Assembly (NCBI RefSeq): GCF_003402535.2
Contig: NZ_AP025170.1
Location: 3,472,001-3,536,000, forward strand
Length of the DNA: 64,000 nt
Direction: 5' to 3'
Source: Cupriavidus sp. P-10
Lineage (GTDB): Bacteria > Pseudomonadota > Gammaproteobacteria > Burkholderiales > Burkholderiaceae
Below are positions 3,037 through 63,310 of this stretch, piece after piece. Position numbers and translations under genes: made by a program. The stretch's first letter is position 1. Each line of letters opens with the position of its first letter. The notes under the pieces were generated by a model. That model did not search any database and was not told the origin of the DNA. It saw nothing but the letters and a program-made list of their open reading frames with translations.

Positions 3037-4061
3037 GGCGCGCTCCCGTCCGTTCCCGCCCGGCTTTCGCGCGGCGCCGCGCCCGAGGCGCCGCCGTGGT
3101 CACGGCGCTGCTGATCGTGACGCTGGCCGTGGTGGTGGTGTCCGGCATGCTGTGGCGCCAGCAGGTGCAGATCCGCGCCATCGAGAACCAGCGGCTGCTG
3201 GCGCAGGCGACCTGGATCGAGCGCGCCGCGGTGGACTGGGCGCGGCTGATCCTGCGCGACGACCAGCGCCGCACCAACGTCGACCAGCTCGGCGAGCCCT
3301 GGGCGGTGCCGATCGCCGAAACCCGGCTGTCGGACTTCCTCGGCGCGTCGCTGCGCACCGACGTGGCGGGCGAAACCTCGTTTTTGTCGGGCCGCATCCT
3401 CGATGCGCAGGCCCGCTTCAACCTTGCCAACCTGGTGATCTGGACCGCTACCGCCGGCCAGGGACGCGCCGCTTCGGTCGATCCCGAGGCCCAGGCCGCC
3501 TACCGCCGCCTGCTGCAGACCGTGGGCCTGAACCCGCAGCTGGCCGAGTCCACGGCGCGCGTCATGCTGCAGGCAGCGCAAGGCGGCAGCGGCGACGGCC
3601 GCGCGGCGCCACGCCCGCTCGACAGCGTGCAGGGGTTGCTGTCCCTGCCCGGCTATACGCCGGAAATGGTCGCCGTGCTGGAACCGTTCGTCACCGTGCT
3701 GCCGGAGCGCACCCTGGTCAACGCCAACACCGCCGAGGCCGAGGTGCTGGCCGCCGTGATCGACAAGCTGCCGCTGGAGCGCGCCCGCGAACTGGTGCGC
3801 CAGCGCGACCGCGCCTATTTCAACAACATCGGCAACGTGCAGACCCAGCTGGCCGCCGTCGCGCCCCAGGCCGACAGCGCCAGCCTGGCCAACATGATCG
3901 ACGTGCGCTCGCACTATTTCCTGGTCTACGGACTGGTTCGCCACGAACGCGCCAGCCGGCTGCAGGTGTCCCTGATCTTCCGCGGCGAGCCGCTGGGCGC
4001 CACCAATACGACGCGCGTAATCTGGATACAGGACGCCGACCGGTTGCCGGACCTGCGCTGA
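3033..4061 (+). CDS. gspK: Type II secretion minor pseudopilin GspK
   Basis: This is a large minor pseudopilin of 342 residues. The leader ends in RRRARGAAVVTALLIVTLAVVVV, so the usual Glu+5 is absent, which is normal for GspK. The body contains GRILDAQARFNLANLV and two helix-hairpin-helix-like stretches (SVQGLLSLPGYTPEM, VNANTAEAEVLAAVIDKLP) typical of the family. The ATG overlaps the gspJ stop. It caps the pseudopilus tip. It is the last gene of the first block; a 330-bp gap separates it from gspL. Confidence 0.93.
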   Translation: MRRAPVRSRPAFARRRARGAAVVTALLIVTLAVVVVSGMLWRQQVQIRAIENQRLLAQATWIERAAVDWARLILRDDQRRTNVDQLGEPWAVPIAETRLSDFLGASLRTDVAGETSFLSGRILDAQARFNLANLVIWTATAGQGRAASVDPEAQAAYRRLLQTVGLNPQLAESTARVMLQAAQGGSGDGRAAPRPLDSVQGLLSLPGYTPEMVAVLEPFVTVLPERTLVNANTAEAEVLAAVIDKLPLERARELVRQRDRAYFNNIGNVQTQLAAVAPQADSASLANMIDVRSHYFLVYGLVRHERASRLQVSLIFRGEPLGATNTTRVIWIQDADRLPDLR

Positions 4062-4391
4062 ATGTCTGATACAAGACGCACGAAGCATGCATAGGCGGCG
4101 CGATGTGCAGGCGTTGGCAACCGGGGAGAATGGTATTGACGCGGTTTAGTCACACAGGCAAGGTATGCTGCGACGCTGGCGCGAGCGAGGCGCCACGCCG
4201 CCCGCCGCCAAGCGCGGCCGTGCACCGCTGCCTGCTGACCCGCCCGCGTCTCCGCGCGCAGCGGCAAGCCCGCGGCGCCGCGGCATGCCGGCTGCGGGGC
4301 AACCAAAAGGCTGGCCAAGGCGCAATCCACGCGGCAATGCGCCTTCCCGGGTTCTCCCATGTCCCGCCACTGACGCCAAGCTAAGGAAATC
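4062..4391. other. 330-bp gap between gspK and gspL, no gene recognised
   Basis: The gap is GC-rich and has short open frames without family resemblance or good ribosome sites. In many related clusters gspC lies elsewhere in the operon, and I looked for it here without success. A TTGACG (4136-4141) and a TATGCT (4164-4169) are present, but they are 22 bp apart, too far for a standard sigma-70 promoter. The gap probably holds the promoter and leader for gspL onward, but this is inference. Confidence 0.4.
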
Positions 4392-5873
4392 TTGAGCACC
4401 ACCCTGTACGTCCGCCTGCCGCACCGGCCGCACGACCAGCCGCAACCCTGGCAATTCGGTGCCCTGCCGTTCGCGTTGGTACGCACCGGCGCCACTGCCG
4501 CCACCGACGCCGCACGGCGCGTGCCCGGCCGCACGGCGCCTGAAGTGTTGCGCGAAGGCCACGCCCGCATCGCCGACCTGCCCCCTGCCGAGCGCCTGGT
4601 GCTGATCCTGGCGGCCAGCGACGTACTGCTTACCACTGCCAGCGTGCCTCCGCTGCCGCCGGCACGTTTGAAACAGGCGCTGCCCAACCTGATCGAAGAC
4701 GCGCTCGCCACCGACGCACAGCCCTGCCATATCGGCGTCGGCCCCGCGCTCGACGGCAGCGCCGCAATTCGCGGCCCGCGCCGGCGGCTGCTGATGGTGG
4801 CCGACCGCGCCTGGCTGCGGGCCGTGCTCGAAGCGTTTGCCGAACACCGCCATCGCCGCCGGCATGTGCTGGCGGCGCAGCTGTGCGTGCCGTTGGCAGC
4901 GGCAGCCGAGGCGCCTGCTCAAGCGCCGGGTACCGAACCGACGCTGCGCCCGGCGGAGGAAGCCGCACAGGACGAGCCGGCCACGCTGGTGGTCGAGGCT
5001 GACGCCAGCGCCCTGGCTGCCGGCGGCGGACTGCTCGGTAGTGCGACCGTCGGCGCCACCGAGCCAGCCCCTGCGCTGGCGCGCCAGTGGCAGCTGACCG
5101 TGCGCACCGGCGCACACGCCGGTTACGGCTTGCTGCTGGGGGACGACGCCCTTGGAGCCTGGCAGGCGCTGGCGCCCGACGGCATCTGGTACGCCGACGC
5201 CGATGCTGCCGCCGCGGCGCCGGTACCCGCATTGCATGGCGCCGCACCCGCCGGCTGGCCGCTGTGGATCGAGGGCGCGCAGGAATGCCTGCGCGAGCCG
5301 GCACTGGACCTGGCGCAGTTCGAGTTTGCGCAAGGCCGCGCCGACCGCTGGAACCTGGCGGCATGGCGCGTGCCGCTGGCGCTGCTGGCCGGCCTCGTGC
5401 TGGTGCAGGTGCTGGGCATGAACATCCACTGGCTGCTGCTGCGGAACGAACAGCAGCGCGTGGAAGCCGCGCAGCAGCAGACCCTGCGCAGCGCCTTCCC
5501 GCAGATCCCGACCATCCTGGACGCACCGTTGCAAATGCGCCGGCAGGTCGAGCAACTGCGCATCGCCAGCGGCCGCAGCACGCCGGAAGACTTCCTGCCG
5601 CTGGCAGACCGCTTTGCCCAGGCCGCGCGCCGCCTGCCCCCCGATGCGCTGCAGGCGCTGGAGTACCGCGGCCGCATGCTGGTGGTGACACTCAAACCGG
5701 GCACGGACATTGCCAGCCTCCGTACTGCCGCGCGCCAGGCCGGCCTGCAGATGGAAGAGGACAAGACCGGTGGCGCGGCCGGTAGCGCACCCGGCAGTGC
5801 GGCGGGCGGCGCGTTGGGTGGCGCCACGCCGGTGACGCCGGGCTCGCGCTGGACCGTCAGGCCGGGCCTGTGA
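4392..5873 (+). CDS. gspL: Type II secretion inner-membrane platform protein GspL
   Basis: This 493-residue protein has the GspL layout: a cytoplasmic actin-like part at the N terminus (about 1-325, with LPPAERLVLILAASDVLLT), one membrane helix (LALLAGLVLVQVLGMNI, about residues 330-350), and a periplasmic ferredoxin-like part. The start is a TTG at 4392 preceded by AAGGAAAT. GspL holds the ATPase GspE at the membrane and pairs with GspM. It is followed 19 bp later by gspM. A glycine/alanine-rich stretch near residue 460 is not conserved in the family as far as I know. Confidence 0.9.
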   Translation: MSTTLYVRLPHRPHDQPQPWQFGALPFALVRTGATAATDAARRVPGRTAPEVLREGHARIADLPPAERLVLILAASDVLLTTASVPPLPPARLKQALPNLIEDALATDAQPCHIGVGPALDGSAAIRGPRRRLLMVADRAWLRAVLEAFAEHRHRRRHVLAAQLCVPLAAAAEAPAQAPGTEPTLRPAEEAAQDEPATLVVEADASALAAGGGLLGSATVGATEPAPALARQWQLTVRTGAHAGYGLLLGDDALGAWQALAPDGIWYADADAAAAAPVPALHGAAPAGWPLWIEGAQECLREPALDLAQFEFAQGRADRWNLAAWRVPLALLAGLVLVQVLGMNIHWLLLRNEQQRVEAAQQQTLRSAFPQIPTILDAPLQMRRQVEQLRIASGRSTPEDFLPLADRFAQAARRLPPDALQALEYRGRMLVVTLKPGTDIASLRTAARQAGLQMEEDKTGGAAGSAPGSAAGGALGGATPVTPGSRWTVRPGL

Positions 5874-25841: not shown

Positions 25842-25955
25842 TTTCAGCCTTCCGCAATGTCTCAGGTGCGGGCATGATCGCAGCAAATGCGGCGCGCCGC
25901 GAGCCAGTTGAGCGGCCGCCGCGCCGGATCCACCGAAATGGGAGAAAGGTTGCGC

Positions 25956-26591
25956 ATGACAAGCAAGAAGGAAGCGCAGGCAGCCACGACAGCGCCGGTG
26001 CGCTGCGGCTGGTGCGGCACGCTGGAAGACTATTGCCACTACCACGACCACGAGTGGGGCTTCCCGGTCGCGGATGACCGGCGGCTGTTCGAGAAGCTGT
26101 GCCTGGAGGGTTTCCAGGCGGGCCTGAGCTGGCTGACGATCCTGCGCAAGCGCGAGGCCTTCCGCAAGGCCTTCGCCAACTTCGACATCGACAAGGTCGC
26201 CCGCTTCGGCGAGCGCGACATCCAGCGCCTGCTCGGCGATGCCGGCATCGTGCGCCACCGCGGCAAGATCGAGGCCGCCATCAACAACGCCCAGCGTGCG
26301 CGCGAACTACTGGAAACGGAATCGTCGCTGGCTGCCTATTTCTGGCGCTTCGAGCCGGATCCGGACAGCCGGCCCAAGGTGCTGACGCCCGAGGTGCTGC
26401 GCACCATGGCGGTCTCGCCCGAGTCGACGGCGCTGTCCAGGGACCTGAAGAAGCGCGGCTGGCGCTTTGTCGGGCCGACCACCATGTACGCGCTGATGCA
26501 GGCGATGGGCCTGGTTAACGACCACCAGGACGGCTGCTCGACGCGGGCGGAAGTGATACGGGCGCGCAAGGTGTTCAAGGTGCCGCGTTGA
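25956..26591 (+). CDS. tag: DNA-3-methyladenine glycosylase I
   Basis: From ATG 25956 (MTSKKEAQ), after GAGAAAGG, this is 211 residues. The Tag zinc-snap residues are visible: Cys in RCGWCG, His in YHDHEWG near the N terminus, and His and Cys in VNDHQDGCS near the C terminus. The family core GFQAGLSWLTILRKREAFRKAF is intact. It removes 3-methyladenine from alkylated DNA in base excision repair. An earlier in-frame ATG at 25938 is less well placed. Its 3' end faces an unusual 365-bp intergenic element. Confidence 0.94.
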   Translation: MTSKKEAQAATTAPVRCGWCGTLEDYCHYHDHEWGFPVADDRRLFEKLCLEGFQAGLSWLTILRKREAFRKAFANFDIDKVARFGERDIQRLLGDAGIVRHRGKIEAAINNAQRARELLETESSLAAYFWRFEPDPDSRPKVLTPEVLRTMAVSPESTALSRDLKKRGWRFVGPTTMYALMQAMGLVNDHQDGCSTRAEVIRARKVFKVPR

Positions 26592-26956
26592 CCAGCGTTA
26601 ACGATGGTCCGCGCTCATCACGCGACGTATACGTCCGCCGCAAGGCGATGCATTGTTCAGCGCCTGACCGATGCGGTCGATGCAACGGTCCTTGTGATGG
26701 TTTTTATATTGTTTACATATGTAAACATAGTAGTAGTAGGTAAACCAGTCACTGCGCCGTGGATAAGTCACCTTTTCCCTTTCGCCTCAAGGACTTGCAA
26801 GAAAGATAACCACGGCGGCAGCACATGCGTATACGTGGATAGCCGGGCGCTTGCGTATACGTCCGCGACGGCGGCGCGATTGTTGTTCGTATACGTCCCA
26901 CAGCGCACCCCCAGGCGGGACACAGCTTGTCCGGCGAGTTATCCCCAGGTGCGGGC
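26592..26956. other. Low-GC 365-bp element between two convergent genes, with repeats and an 18-bp palindrome
   Basis: Both flanking genes end here, so no promoter is needed for them. Four copies of CGTATACGT occur (cores at 26627-26634, 26829-26836, 26855-26862, 26889-26896), and the sequence TGTTTACATATGTAAACA at 26710-26727 is a perfect palindrome. Words close to the DnaA box lie at 26758-26766 (CGTGGATAA), 26834-26842 (CGTGGATAG) and 26939-26947 (TTATCCCCA). A 118-codon open frame (26604-26960) crosses it but has unlike composition and no known features. I read it as a protein-binding DNA site, or an unrecognised small transcription unit. Confidence 0.55.
26710..26727. repeat. 18-bp perfect palindrome TGTTTACATATGTAAACA
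   Basis: A perfect dyad. The GTTT...AAAC frame resembles ParB-binding parS sites (chromosomal parS has GTTTCACGTGAAAC; some Burkholderia secondary-replicon sites have GTTTATGCGCATAAAC), but the centre differs. It could equally be the operator of an unknown regulator. Confidence 0.7.
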
Positions 26957-27964
26957 CTAGATGTCCACAGCCGCCTGGCCGGCGGCGGCGGTTCTGGTGG
27001 AGGCCCCTGCGGCGTATGCGGGATTAACCTGCGCGGGATTAACCTGCGCGGGATCGACGTGCGTCATCACGTTGAGCACGTGATGGTGTTCGAGCGCGCG
27101 GCGCCGTGCCTCGACCGCGATCGCATGGCCCTGCGCCACGGTCAGGGTGCCGTCGATCTCCAGGTGCACGTCGACCAGCACCTGGTCGCCCATCTTGCGC
27201 GTACGCAGGTCATGCAGGCCCTGCACACCCGGCGTGCCGAGCAGGGTCGCCTCGATCGCTGCGACGGTTTCTTCGTCGGCGGCACGGTCCATCAGGTCGT
27301 TGAGCGCGTCCCAGCCGAAGCGCAGGCCCATGCGCGCCACCATCAGCCCGACCACGATCGCCGCCACCGGGTCCAGCAAGTGATAGCCGAGCAGGTTGCC
27401 GCCGATGCCCAGCGCCACCACCAGCGACGAGGCCGCGTCGGAACGCGCATGCCAGGCATTGGCGACCAGCATGCCGGAACGCACGCGCCGCGCCACCGCC
27501 AGCATGTAGCGGAACAGCAGTTCCTTGGCAACCAGCGTGGCCAGCGCCACCCACAGCGCCAGCGCCTGTACCGGCTGGGCGCCGCCGGGGTGCTGCAACT
27601 TGCCGACCGCGGCCCACAGCATGCCCGCGCCGACTGCCAGCAGCAGCCCGCCCAGCGCCAGCGACGCCGCGGTTTCGAAACGGAGGTGGCCGTACTGGTG
27701 GTCGCCGTCGGGATCCTTGCGGCTCTGCCAGGCGGCCAGCAGCACCACGAAGTCGGAGAGCAGGTCGGACAGTGAGTGCGCTGCGTCGGCCAGCAGCGCT
27801 TGCGAGCCGGCGAGCAGGCCTGCGGCGCCCTGCGCCGCAGTCAGCACGATATTGACCCCCACGCTGACCAGCGTGCAGCGCCGGCCCGCGCGGTGGCGCG
27901 CGTCGGCTTCGGCCGCGGTCGCGGCGGTGGTGTCGTCGGGCAGGCTGGCTGATTGGGATTGCAT
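26957..27964 (-). CDS. Cation diffusion facilitator (CDF) family metal exporter
   Basis: From ATG 27964 (MQSQSASLPDD) this is 335 residues; a GTG five codons upstream is an alternative. There are six predicted membrane helices. The metal-site residues lie in LLADAAHSLSDLLSDFVVLL (helix 2) and NAWHARSDAASSLVVALG (helix 5). The cytoplasmic domain has the CDF histidines (LQGLHDLRTRKMGDQVLVDVHLEID, EHHHVLNVMTHVD). It would export Zn2+, Co2+, Fe2+ or similar by proton antiport. The 3' end carries a 15-bp direct repeat (27020-27049) that duplicates VNPAQ. A truncated MarR-like frame lies 18 bp upstream. Confidence 0.9.
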   Translation of the reverse strand: MQSQSASLPDDTTAATAAEADARHRAGRRCTLVSVGVNIVLTAAQGAAGLLAGSQALLADAAHSLSDLLSDFVVLLAAWQSRKDPDGDHQYGHLRFETAASLALGGLLLAVGAGMLWAAVGKLQHPGGAQPVQALALWVALATLVAKELLFRYMLAVARRVRSGMLVANAWHARSDAASSLVVALGIGGNLLGYHLLDPVAAIVVGLMVARMGLRFGWDALNDLMDRAADEETVAAIEATLLGTPGVQGLHDLRTRKMGDQVLVDVHLEIDGTLTVAQGHAIAVEARRRALEHHHVLNVMTHVDPAQVNPAQVNPAYAAGASTRTAAAGQAAVDI

Positions 27965-27982
27965 GGGTTCACGTCGCACGGG

Positions 27983-63060: not shown

Positions 63061-63100
63061 ACGTGCCGGATAGTCACCACGACTAGCAGTGCCGGCACGT
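63061..63100. promoter_or_regulatory. Inverted repeat in the divergent gap before gcl
   Basis: ACGTGCCGG (63061-63069) and CCGGCACGT (63092-63100) are perfect 9-bp arms separated by 22 nt, in a 280-bp gap of lower GC. It could be a two-half-site operator or a hairpin in the leader. No clear promoter pair was found for gcl in this gap. Confidence 0.4.
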
Positions 63101-63310
63101 ACCTATTGCTGCGCAACGTGGCCGCTTCATCACACCATATATCCAATTGCATACGCTGGCGTGCCATCGGCGACCGTCTCATCAGGCTTCCAAGCCCATA
63201 TTCCATACCCGAAGTATCGAATCAACTGATCGTCCTTCTGTTTATCCCAGCCGGGTTGGGGGAATAGGATCGACTCCAATGCGAATCCCACCACCATTGG
63301 AGACAAGATC

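Follow-up and report, generated by a model that had tools for sequence, protein, structure and literature searches.

Why should a gap between two convergent genes be packed with repeated words of the type that proteins bind? The question is raised by a 365-base spacer on chromosome 1 of Cupriavidus sp. P-10, which we analysed within a stretch of 64,000 nucleotides (hereafter the window) and which separates tag, on the plus strand, from the gene of a CDF family cation transporter, on the minus strand (Table 1). The GC content of the spacer is 0.559, versus 0.682 in the window and 0.688 in the flanks (1 kb on each side), and only five of 1273 segments of the same length, taken in steps of 50 bases, fall below it, three of which overlap the spacer itself. 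An earlier note, written from the letters alone, had drawn attention to this drop in GC and to the convergent, promoter-less setting, and both observations hold, no promoter-like or terminator-like site having been found when the spacer was scanned. The same note proposed a protein-binding site related to replication, a proposal for which the module anatomy described below speaks. Our own reading, to which we give a probability of roughly 0.7, is that chromosome 1 has in the spacer a second, conserved DnaA module of the oriC type, which probably regulates initiation.

The four CGTATACGT sites which had been reported in the spacer start at 26626, 26828, 26854 and 26888. They give five hits, because the first site also reads on the minus strand, and none of 100 shuffles of the spacer reached at least five (shuffle mean 0.07). 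The genome-wide search suggested in the note confirmed the clustering but not a restriction to the spacer, since the P-10 genome has 20 hits of CGTATACGT, some of them in further small groups (C1:3643885-3644322 and the end of C2) and others standing singly elsewhere. The words are thus present as described, but the real repeat unit is GTWWAC, which is common to the CGTATACGT words, to both halves of a palindrome and to two further sites; eight of the ten GTWWAC sites in the window lie in the spacer. Judged by the GTWWAC frequency over 460 kb of this chromosome, the enrichment has a Poisson probability of about 2e-15, but we had picked the motif once the sequence had been seen, which makes the figure post hoc. 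Three other groups in the 460 kb have at least three GTWWAC sites per 400 bases: one of three sites at C1:3625432 and two that adjoin each other, with 15 sites, in the intergenic region that separates a SET-domain gene from an HU gene (SET/HU, Table 1). GTWWAC is also clustered at the chromosome-2 origin end, with seven sites in the last 1300 bases. The perfect palindrome, TGTTTACATATGTAAACA, is present as the note had it and occurs at a single place in the 9.08-Mb genome.

In Burkholderia cenocepacia, an orphan methyltransferase of the Burkholderiaceae methylates GTWWAC on adenine, and the motif is also found near origins (PMC7364216); GTWWAC adenine methylation has been reported in Ralstonia solanacearum (PMC5390034), and GTWWAC methylation is stated for plasmid DNA of C. 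necator (PMC12645576). The R. solanacearum study, which asked about regions upstream of genes, describes five loci at which two or more methylated sites are conserved upstream, including the upstream region shared by SET and HU and megaplasmid repA (PMC5390034). A gap between convergent genes, such as the tag-CDF spacer, is upstream of no gene. The sole PF01555 methyltransferase match in P-10, at C1:2476511-2477167 (L248) and next to a gene which, judged by eye on its translation, is trpB-like, is a candidate for the GTWWAC enzyme.

The spacer is organised as an AT-rich stretch with GTWWAC sites, followed by four TAG repeats and then by DnaA-box-like words (Table 1). Its core, at 26702-26769, matches with E 2.5e-16 the model R1, a sequence-only model of the core derived from 34 sequences which include the window, as well as the SET/HU copy of P-10. 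Over 330 bases there are two DnaA-box-like words with at most one mismatch, where base shuffles lead one to expect 0.06, and four with at most two mismatches, where 0.47 are expected. Words 1 to 3 had been recognised before, a fourth lies beyond the end given in the note, and the TAG repeats had been missed. The spacer module combines a DnaA box cluster with AT-rich DNA, as is looked for in a chromosomal oriC. It also shows what is looked for in a basal unwinding system (BUS: DnaA box, spacer, DnaA-trio), namely a DnaA box with at most two mismatches (box 1 has one mismatch in 36 of 37 spacer modules and two in the other) and at least three trios, at best 3'-GAT-5' (four in the window; TAGTAGTAG in 35 of the 37 modules). 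Box 1 stands 18 nt from the TAG run in 27/37 spacer modules and 28/28 SET/HU modules, a gap longer than the 0-16 nt of the published BUS search rule (PMC8287927); our script counted to the last TAG before box 1, and values other than 18 are partly an artefact of it. In the third module of g24, a genus that we guess to be Ralstonia, the gap between box and trio reads 5 nt, with tandem boxes (L251, L254 and L257). The spacer module may well act like a BUS, and we do not claim strict membership of that class.

Table 1 Features of the tag-CDF spacer, its neighbours and the SET/HU region (positions in the window unless marked C1).
Feature	Position	Strand	Remarks
Intergenic spacer tag/CDF	26592..26956	.	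Between both stop codons; carries most of the module
tag, left neighbour	25887..26591	+	Outside the module; DNA-3-methyladenine glycosylase I family; TIGR00624, 224.8 bits, slightly below the cut-off of 232.5
CDF family cation transporter, right neighbour	26957..27979	-	TIGR01297, 226.7 bits (cut-off 82.35)
oriC-type DnaA module, about 270 bases	26701..26969	+	Core plus DnaA-box-like words; box offsets as in SET/HU copies
AT-rich stretch, GC 0.286	26690..26745	.	Candidate unwinding element, putative function
Eight GTWWAC sites	26597..26894	.	At 26597, 26627, 26711, 26721, 26740, 26829, 26855 and 26889
Perfect palindrome TGTTTACATATGTAAACA	26710..26727	.	18 bases; two inverted GTWWAC sites
Four TAG repeats TAGTAGTAGTAG	26728..26739	+	DnaA-trio-like (3'-GAT-5'); adjoins the palindrome
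DnaA-box-like word 1, CGTGGATAA	26758..26766	-	1 mismatch; 18 nt from the TAG run
IHF-like word	26785..26797	+	Weak; +27 from box 1
DnaA-box-like word 2	26834..26842	-	2 mismatches; +76 from box 1; poorly kept in relatives
DnaA-box-like word 3, TTATCCCCA	26939..26947	+	1 mismatch; +181 from box 1
DnaA-box-like word 4, ATGTCCACA	26961..26969	+	2 mismatches; +203 from box 1; inside the 3' end of the CDF gene
SET/HU intergenic region	P-10 C1:3643714-3644521 (L122, about 3715-4522)		Between SET-domain and HU genes; 15 GTWWAC sites, stronger module

Comparison of the spacers between orthologous tag and CDF genes, as the note had advised, showed that the module is conserved. It lies 3' of tag in 35 of 80 tag loci from named genomes, all 35 being within the first 38 listed (L042-L079). 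R1 gave no match up to E 1 in the other 45 (L052, L059, L078 and L080-L121), among which L052, L059, L078 and L085 bear Cupriavidus names and the others are from outside the genus. Our set of 37 spacer modules comprises the 38 loci L042-L079 minus the core-less L052, L059 and L078, plus the window and C. metallidurans CH34, and the set of 28 SET/HU modules comprises 29 loci minus L235, which failed the pattern of the script; some assemblies occur both among the named loci and among the genomes with G handles, so that the two sets lack independence. TAGTAGTA is found in 37/37 spacer modules, and in 36 aligned cores the columns of GTTTAC, TAT, TAGTAGTA and GTnGATAA are invariant while the surrounding columns drift. 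Spacer DNA matches 58 of 60 genomes of the genus, some of the matches being the tag end or a short core only. R1 (E <= 0.1) matches 59 of the 60, with at least two matches in 56, one in three and none in a genome that is 54% complete; the three genomes from which the second module is absent (G001, G016 and G042) have SET/HU as their sole module. Across the P-10 genome, R1 at E <= 10 finds the spacer and SET/HU (E 5.4e-13), mutually inverted and 145 kb apart; both matches are there by construction, because R1 was built from them (the same applies to the matches of the other sequences that went into R1), and the news is that there is no third.

The module extends well beyond Cupriavidus, as R1 (E <= 0.1) matches 186 of 200 genomes and 20 of 25 genera of the family, small genomes often weakly. 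All copies lie on one contig per genome in the 24 genomes that were inspected closely. Inverted pairs 3-4 kb apart are seen in g13, g25, g7 and some g20, with an extra copy elsewhere in some; copies are spaced by 46-61 kb in g11 (probably Burkholderia, on the basis of one 100-base query), by 166-236 kb in g9 and by about 0.5 kb in one g15 genome. In g24 the copies number three, with 139-152 kb between the first and the second, and there is a single match in 21 of the 23 g10 genomes listed with a match. In g25, inverted modules about 3 kb apart lie at L167:2024-2099 and 5013-5088 and at L176:2535-2610 and 5528-5601. Thirteen of 16 loci inspected adjoin gyrB, gcl/antiporter/MarR/SET/HU or tag-CDF, the remaining three (L201, L203 and L205) having none of the reference genes, and one module copy of g20 follows gyrB. 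The old order, found in several genera, is response regulator, kinase, SET, MarR, module, gcl, antiporter, inverted module, HU; Cupriavidus has retained SET, module and HU, and its gcl and antiporter genes now lie between the two modules. The module pair around antiporter/gcl, plain in L167 and L198-L200, looks like a bipartite oriC, and most of the modules inspected sit at the places, and show the anatomy, expected of oriC. In the first g24 module of L203, L249 and L252, TAG repeats and boxes accompany a core without GTWWAC, which is therefore not indispensable to the module. A search of PLSDB gave no module match, and a plasmid origin was rejected.

Which of the two Cupriavidus copies is oriC? 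The SET/HU region is about 91 kb from dnaA on chromosome 1 of P-10. According to the CH34 genome paper, the transition in GC skew is near 3,837,500, some 90 kb from dnaA and beside three perfect DnaA boxes (PMC2864759); in the genome that we used as CH34, the coordinates of which agree with that paper, the SET/HU module is at 3,835,908-3,835,974 and the spacer module at 3,683,266-3,683,336. Over 40 kb on each side, the CH34 skew changes sign at SET/HU (-0.063 to +0.014) and not at the spacer (-0.022 to -0.005). P-10 alone does not decide the origin, because its skew is flat over a long stretch: there is no sign change at SET/HU (-0.042 to -0.004) or at the spacer (-0.009 to -0.008) over the same 40 kb, and the minimum within 460 kb is at C1:23,003. 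The share of minus-strand genes is 0.91 and 0.80 just left of SET/HU and 0.40 and 0.44 to its right (P-10 and CH34, respectively), and at the spacer it is 0.66 left and 0.47 right in P-10 and 0.59 and 0.63 in CH34. The dnaA-rpmH region was rejected as oriC, as R1 finds no module there (best E 0.66). Nor does R1 find one at ori2 (best E 0.4 with filters off), and the initial visual impression of a shared core at that place was abandoned. Skew, above all the switch in CH34, gene strand and the module-less dnaA-rpmH and ori2 therefore make SET/HU the probable chromosome-1 oriC; the spacer is not a main origin. The sign change of GC skew that is looked for at a chromosomal oriC is absent from the spacer, and neither skew nor gene strand gives a consistent signal of a second origin there. 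The earlier judgement that a full origin is unlikely thus stands for the main origin, although the spacer has the anatomy of an origin module.

Some other places attracted our attention. The four-box cluster of the CH34 paper, at 3,707,588-3,707,653, was considered as a counterpart of the spacer and proved to be another place, without GTWWAC. In P-10, four DnaA-box-like words lie at C1:3602941-3603414, outside any GTWWAC group; one of them is perfect and the other three have one mismatch each. At 63098-63112 of the window, on the minus strand, chromosome 1 has a word like the chromosome-2 RepA iteron with one mismatch, which may be due to chance.

We then compared the spacer copies with the SET/HU copies. 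Relative to box 1, all 28 SET/HU modules have words at +76 (with two to three mismatches), at +181/182 and at +203/204, and the commonest offsets among the 37 spacer modules are 76 (in 19), 180/181 (in 17) and 202/203 (in 18), the remaining offsets differing perhaps partly via indels and the free choice of pair by the script. Box 2 is hardly kept in the spacer copies, because it has at least three mismatches in 33/37. Box 1 is perfect in 11/28 SET/HU versus 0/37 spacer modules, box 3 in 11/28 versus 4/37 and box 4 in 23/28 versus 3/37; by these counts the spacer boxes are weaker than the SET/HU boxes. An IHF-like word (a weak match to the consensus in the spacer) is found at +27 from box 1 in 28/28 SET/HU and 30/37 spacer modules, and the spacer word has at most two mismatches in 21/37, which is only modestly above the level of shuffles (about 25%). 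We placed 38 modules in a tree, namely 13 spacer modules (out of 37), 11 SET/HU modules (out of 28), 12 modules from g24 and two from g10. Support is 100/99 for the spacer clade, 98/98 for the SET/HU clade and a weak 62/86 for the g24 clade, the program having warned of long branches (L070 and g10). As the spacer copies form one clade, the module has been inherited within the genus as a locus of its own. Concerted evolution of both Cupriavidus copies was not seen, core identity (three to four sequences a group) being 0.64 between spacer and SET/HU (g1) compared with 0.69 for SET/HU between g1 and g24. The three g24 copies are mutually alike (core identity 0.78-0.85).

How could such a module regulate initiation? 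At the oriC of E. coli, weak boxes favour the loading of DnaA at high ATP-DnaA. According to the DnaA-trio theory, DnaA binds duplex boxes and an ATP-bound filament extends from there onto the trio strand (PMC8287927). In the spacer module, where the trio strand is kept while the duplex boxes are weak, abundant ATP-DnaA would load on the weak boxes and reach the TAG repeats on single-stranded DNA. A site 145 kb from oriC would be copied soon after initiation and so doubled, and could then take up or reset DnaA; alternatively, the doubled site could fire by itself. The GTWWAC sites in the unwinding stretch may be hemimethylated after fork passage and thereby offer a SeqA-like gate. The spacer would then be a satellite control locus of initiation, which takes up, senses or resets DnaA in the manner of datA and DARS, rather than the main origin. 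Our preference for a control role over a dormant origin is a matter of argument, and the former receives more weight from us because no switch of skew is seen at the spacer.

A dormant origin nevertheless deserves to be weighed. The spacer could be an auxiliary replication origin of chromosome 1, used rarely or upon failure of oriC, with low-affinity boxes that would make it fire late or only at high ATP-DnaA, a reading which we regard as possible but unlikely. In its favour, origin anatomy is retained, and the TAG repeats above all; related genera have two inverted modules about 3 kb apart around gcl/antiporter, much as in a bipartite origin, skew is weak to the right of the spacer in both P-10 and CH34, the minus-strand gene share of P-10 drops across the spacer, and double origins have been predicted in Ralstonia pickettii, at other loci (Gao 2015, PMC4403523). 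However, neither CH34 nor P-10 has a sign change of skew at the spacer, the minus-strand share of CH34 does not drop there, and the boxes are weaker than at SET/HU. A more specific form, in which the tag-CDF locus is a conserved second origin that fires at high ATP-DnaA or when oriC is blocked and is coupled to SET/HU by GTWWAC methylation, is somewhat more doubtful. That the module is a functionless relic of an ancestral bipartite oriC, split by rearrangement, appears improbable: the order SET-MarR-module-gcl-antiporter-inverted module of several genera is indeed broken up in Cupriavidus, but conservation in the intergenic gap is position-specific across the genus, down to the invariant columns of the 36 cores.

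A crtS-like site on chromosome 1, the replication of which triggers chromosome 2, is a very improbable reading. GTWWAC is clustered at the chromosome-2 origin end too, and in Hi-C of C. necator ori2 touches a large part of chromosome 1 (PMC13342612). On the other hand, the RepA-iteron-like word is absent from the spacer at up to three mismatches, versus 27 matches in an 8.2-kb ori2 stretch, R1 detects no module at ori2, the three genomes without the spacer module keep the chromosome-2 RepA (94-96% identity), and G214, with a 6.68-Mb chromosome and a 34-kb contig, still has two modules. The spacer lacks binding sites of the chromosome-2 initiator as far as the iteron word is concerned, and a site of another kind is possible; an essential crtS-like trigger fits poorly, and a helpful but dispensable role in chromosome-2 timing is possible. 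The other readings offered in the note, a ParB or nucleoid site, to which one may add the operator of a regulator, or else a small RNA or hidden gene, are scarcely credible. The palindrome, as well as an open frame of 118 codons at 26604-26960, could be quoted in their favour. Yet the palindrome, where parS would require a conserved one of 16 bases, is kept in 11/37 spacer modules, the other 26 having GTTTACGTATAC instead, and the one parS-like match in the window, for which chance would account, lies elsewhere than in the spacer. Substitutions between the spacer and ten relatives are even over codon positions (304/328/333), leaving the 118-codon frame with no coding signature, and a search of Rfam gave no match to the spacer up to E 1, to which the lack of promoter-like and terminator-like sites may be added.

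The reading of the spacer as a second oriC-type module with a probable control role concerns a precisely delimited locus of 270 bases, present in nearly all of a genus that includes laboratory strains and paired with a matched but stronger copy at a distance of 145 kb. Why one bacterium keeps two such sites is a directly testable question. The module also provides a recognisable oriC-type core for the family, where published predictions leaned on the position of dnaA and on DnaA-box counts. Our search of the open literature, outside which most subscription papers lie, found no description of the tag-CDF spacer or of an oriC-type module there, and the CH34 paper (PMC2864759) and Gao 2015 (PMC4403523) come nearest. 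The predicted double origins of the latter share the idea of two origin-like regions per chromosome, Ralstonia included. Those predicted in R. pickettii are DnaA-box clusters adjacent to dnaA and hemE, tag-CDF and SET/HU being absent from Table 1 of that paper, which states that there is no evidence of two functional origins being used on one bacterial chromosome (PMC4403523). There has been a call for further timers of replication in multi-chromosome bacteria, in addition to those known from V. cholerae and A. tumefaciens (PMC13342612), and Du et al. 2016 suggested seeking a crtS-like mechanism in B. cenocepacia (PMC4948915). Like crtS of Vibrio cholerae, the spacer is a non-coding chromosome-1 site in a multi-chromosome genome; unlike it, the spacer is without the iteron word of the chromosome-2 initiator, and its module is missing in three RepA-keeping genomes. 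With datA, DARS1 and DARS2 of E. coli and the DnaA-box clusters of B. subtilis it has in common that it is a non-coding DnaA-box locus off oriC (PMC13220808). In the accessible text of that source these loci are not described with DnaA-trios. A DnaA box, repeated 3'-GAT-5' trios and AT-rich DNA are shared with the BUS of B. subtilis and other oriCs, from which the spacer departs in having a gap of 18 nt instead of at most 16 and in lying outside the probable oriC (PMC8287927). With the oriC-type modules of its own family, located at SET/HU in Cupriavidus and at gcl-MarR or gyrB elsewhere, the spacer module shares the core, the TAG repeats, GTWWAC and offsets of about 182/204, and it is set apart from them by its weaker boxes, the absence of a GC-skew switch, its place between convergent genes and its distance of 145 kb.
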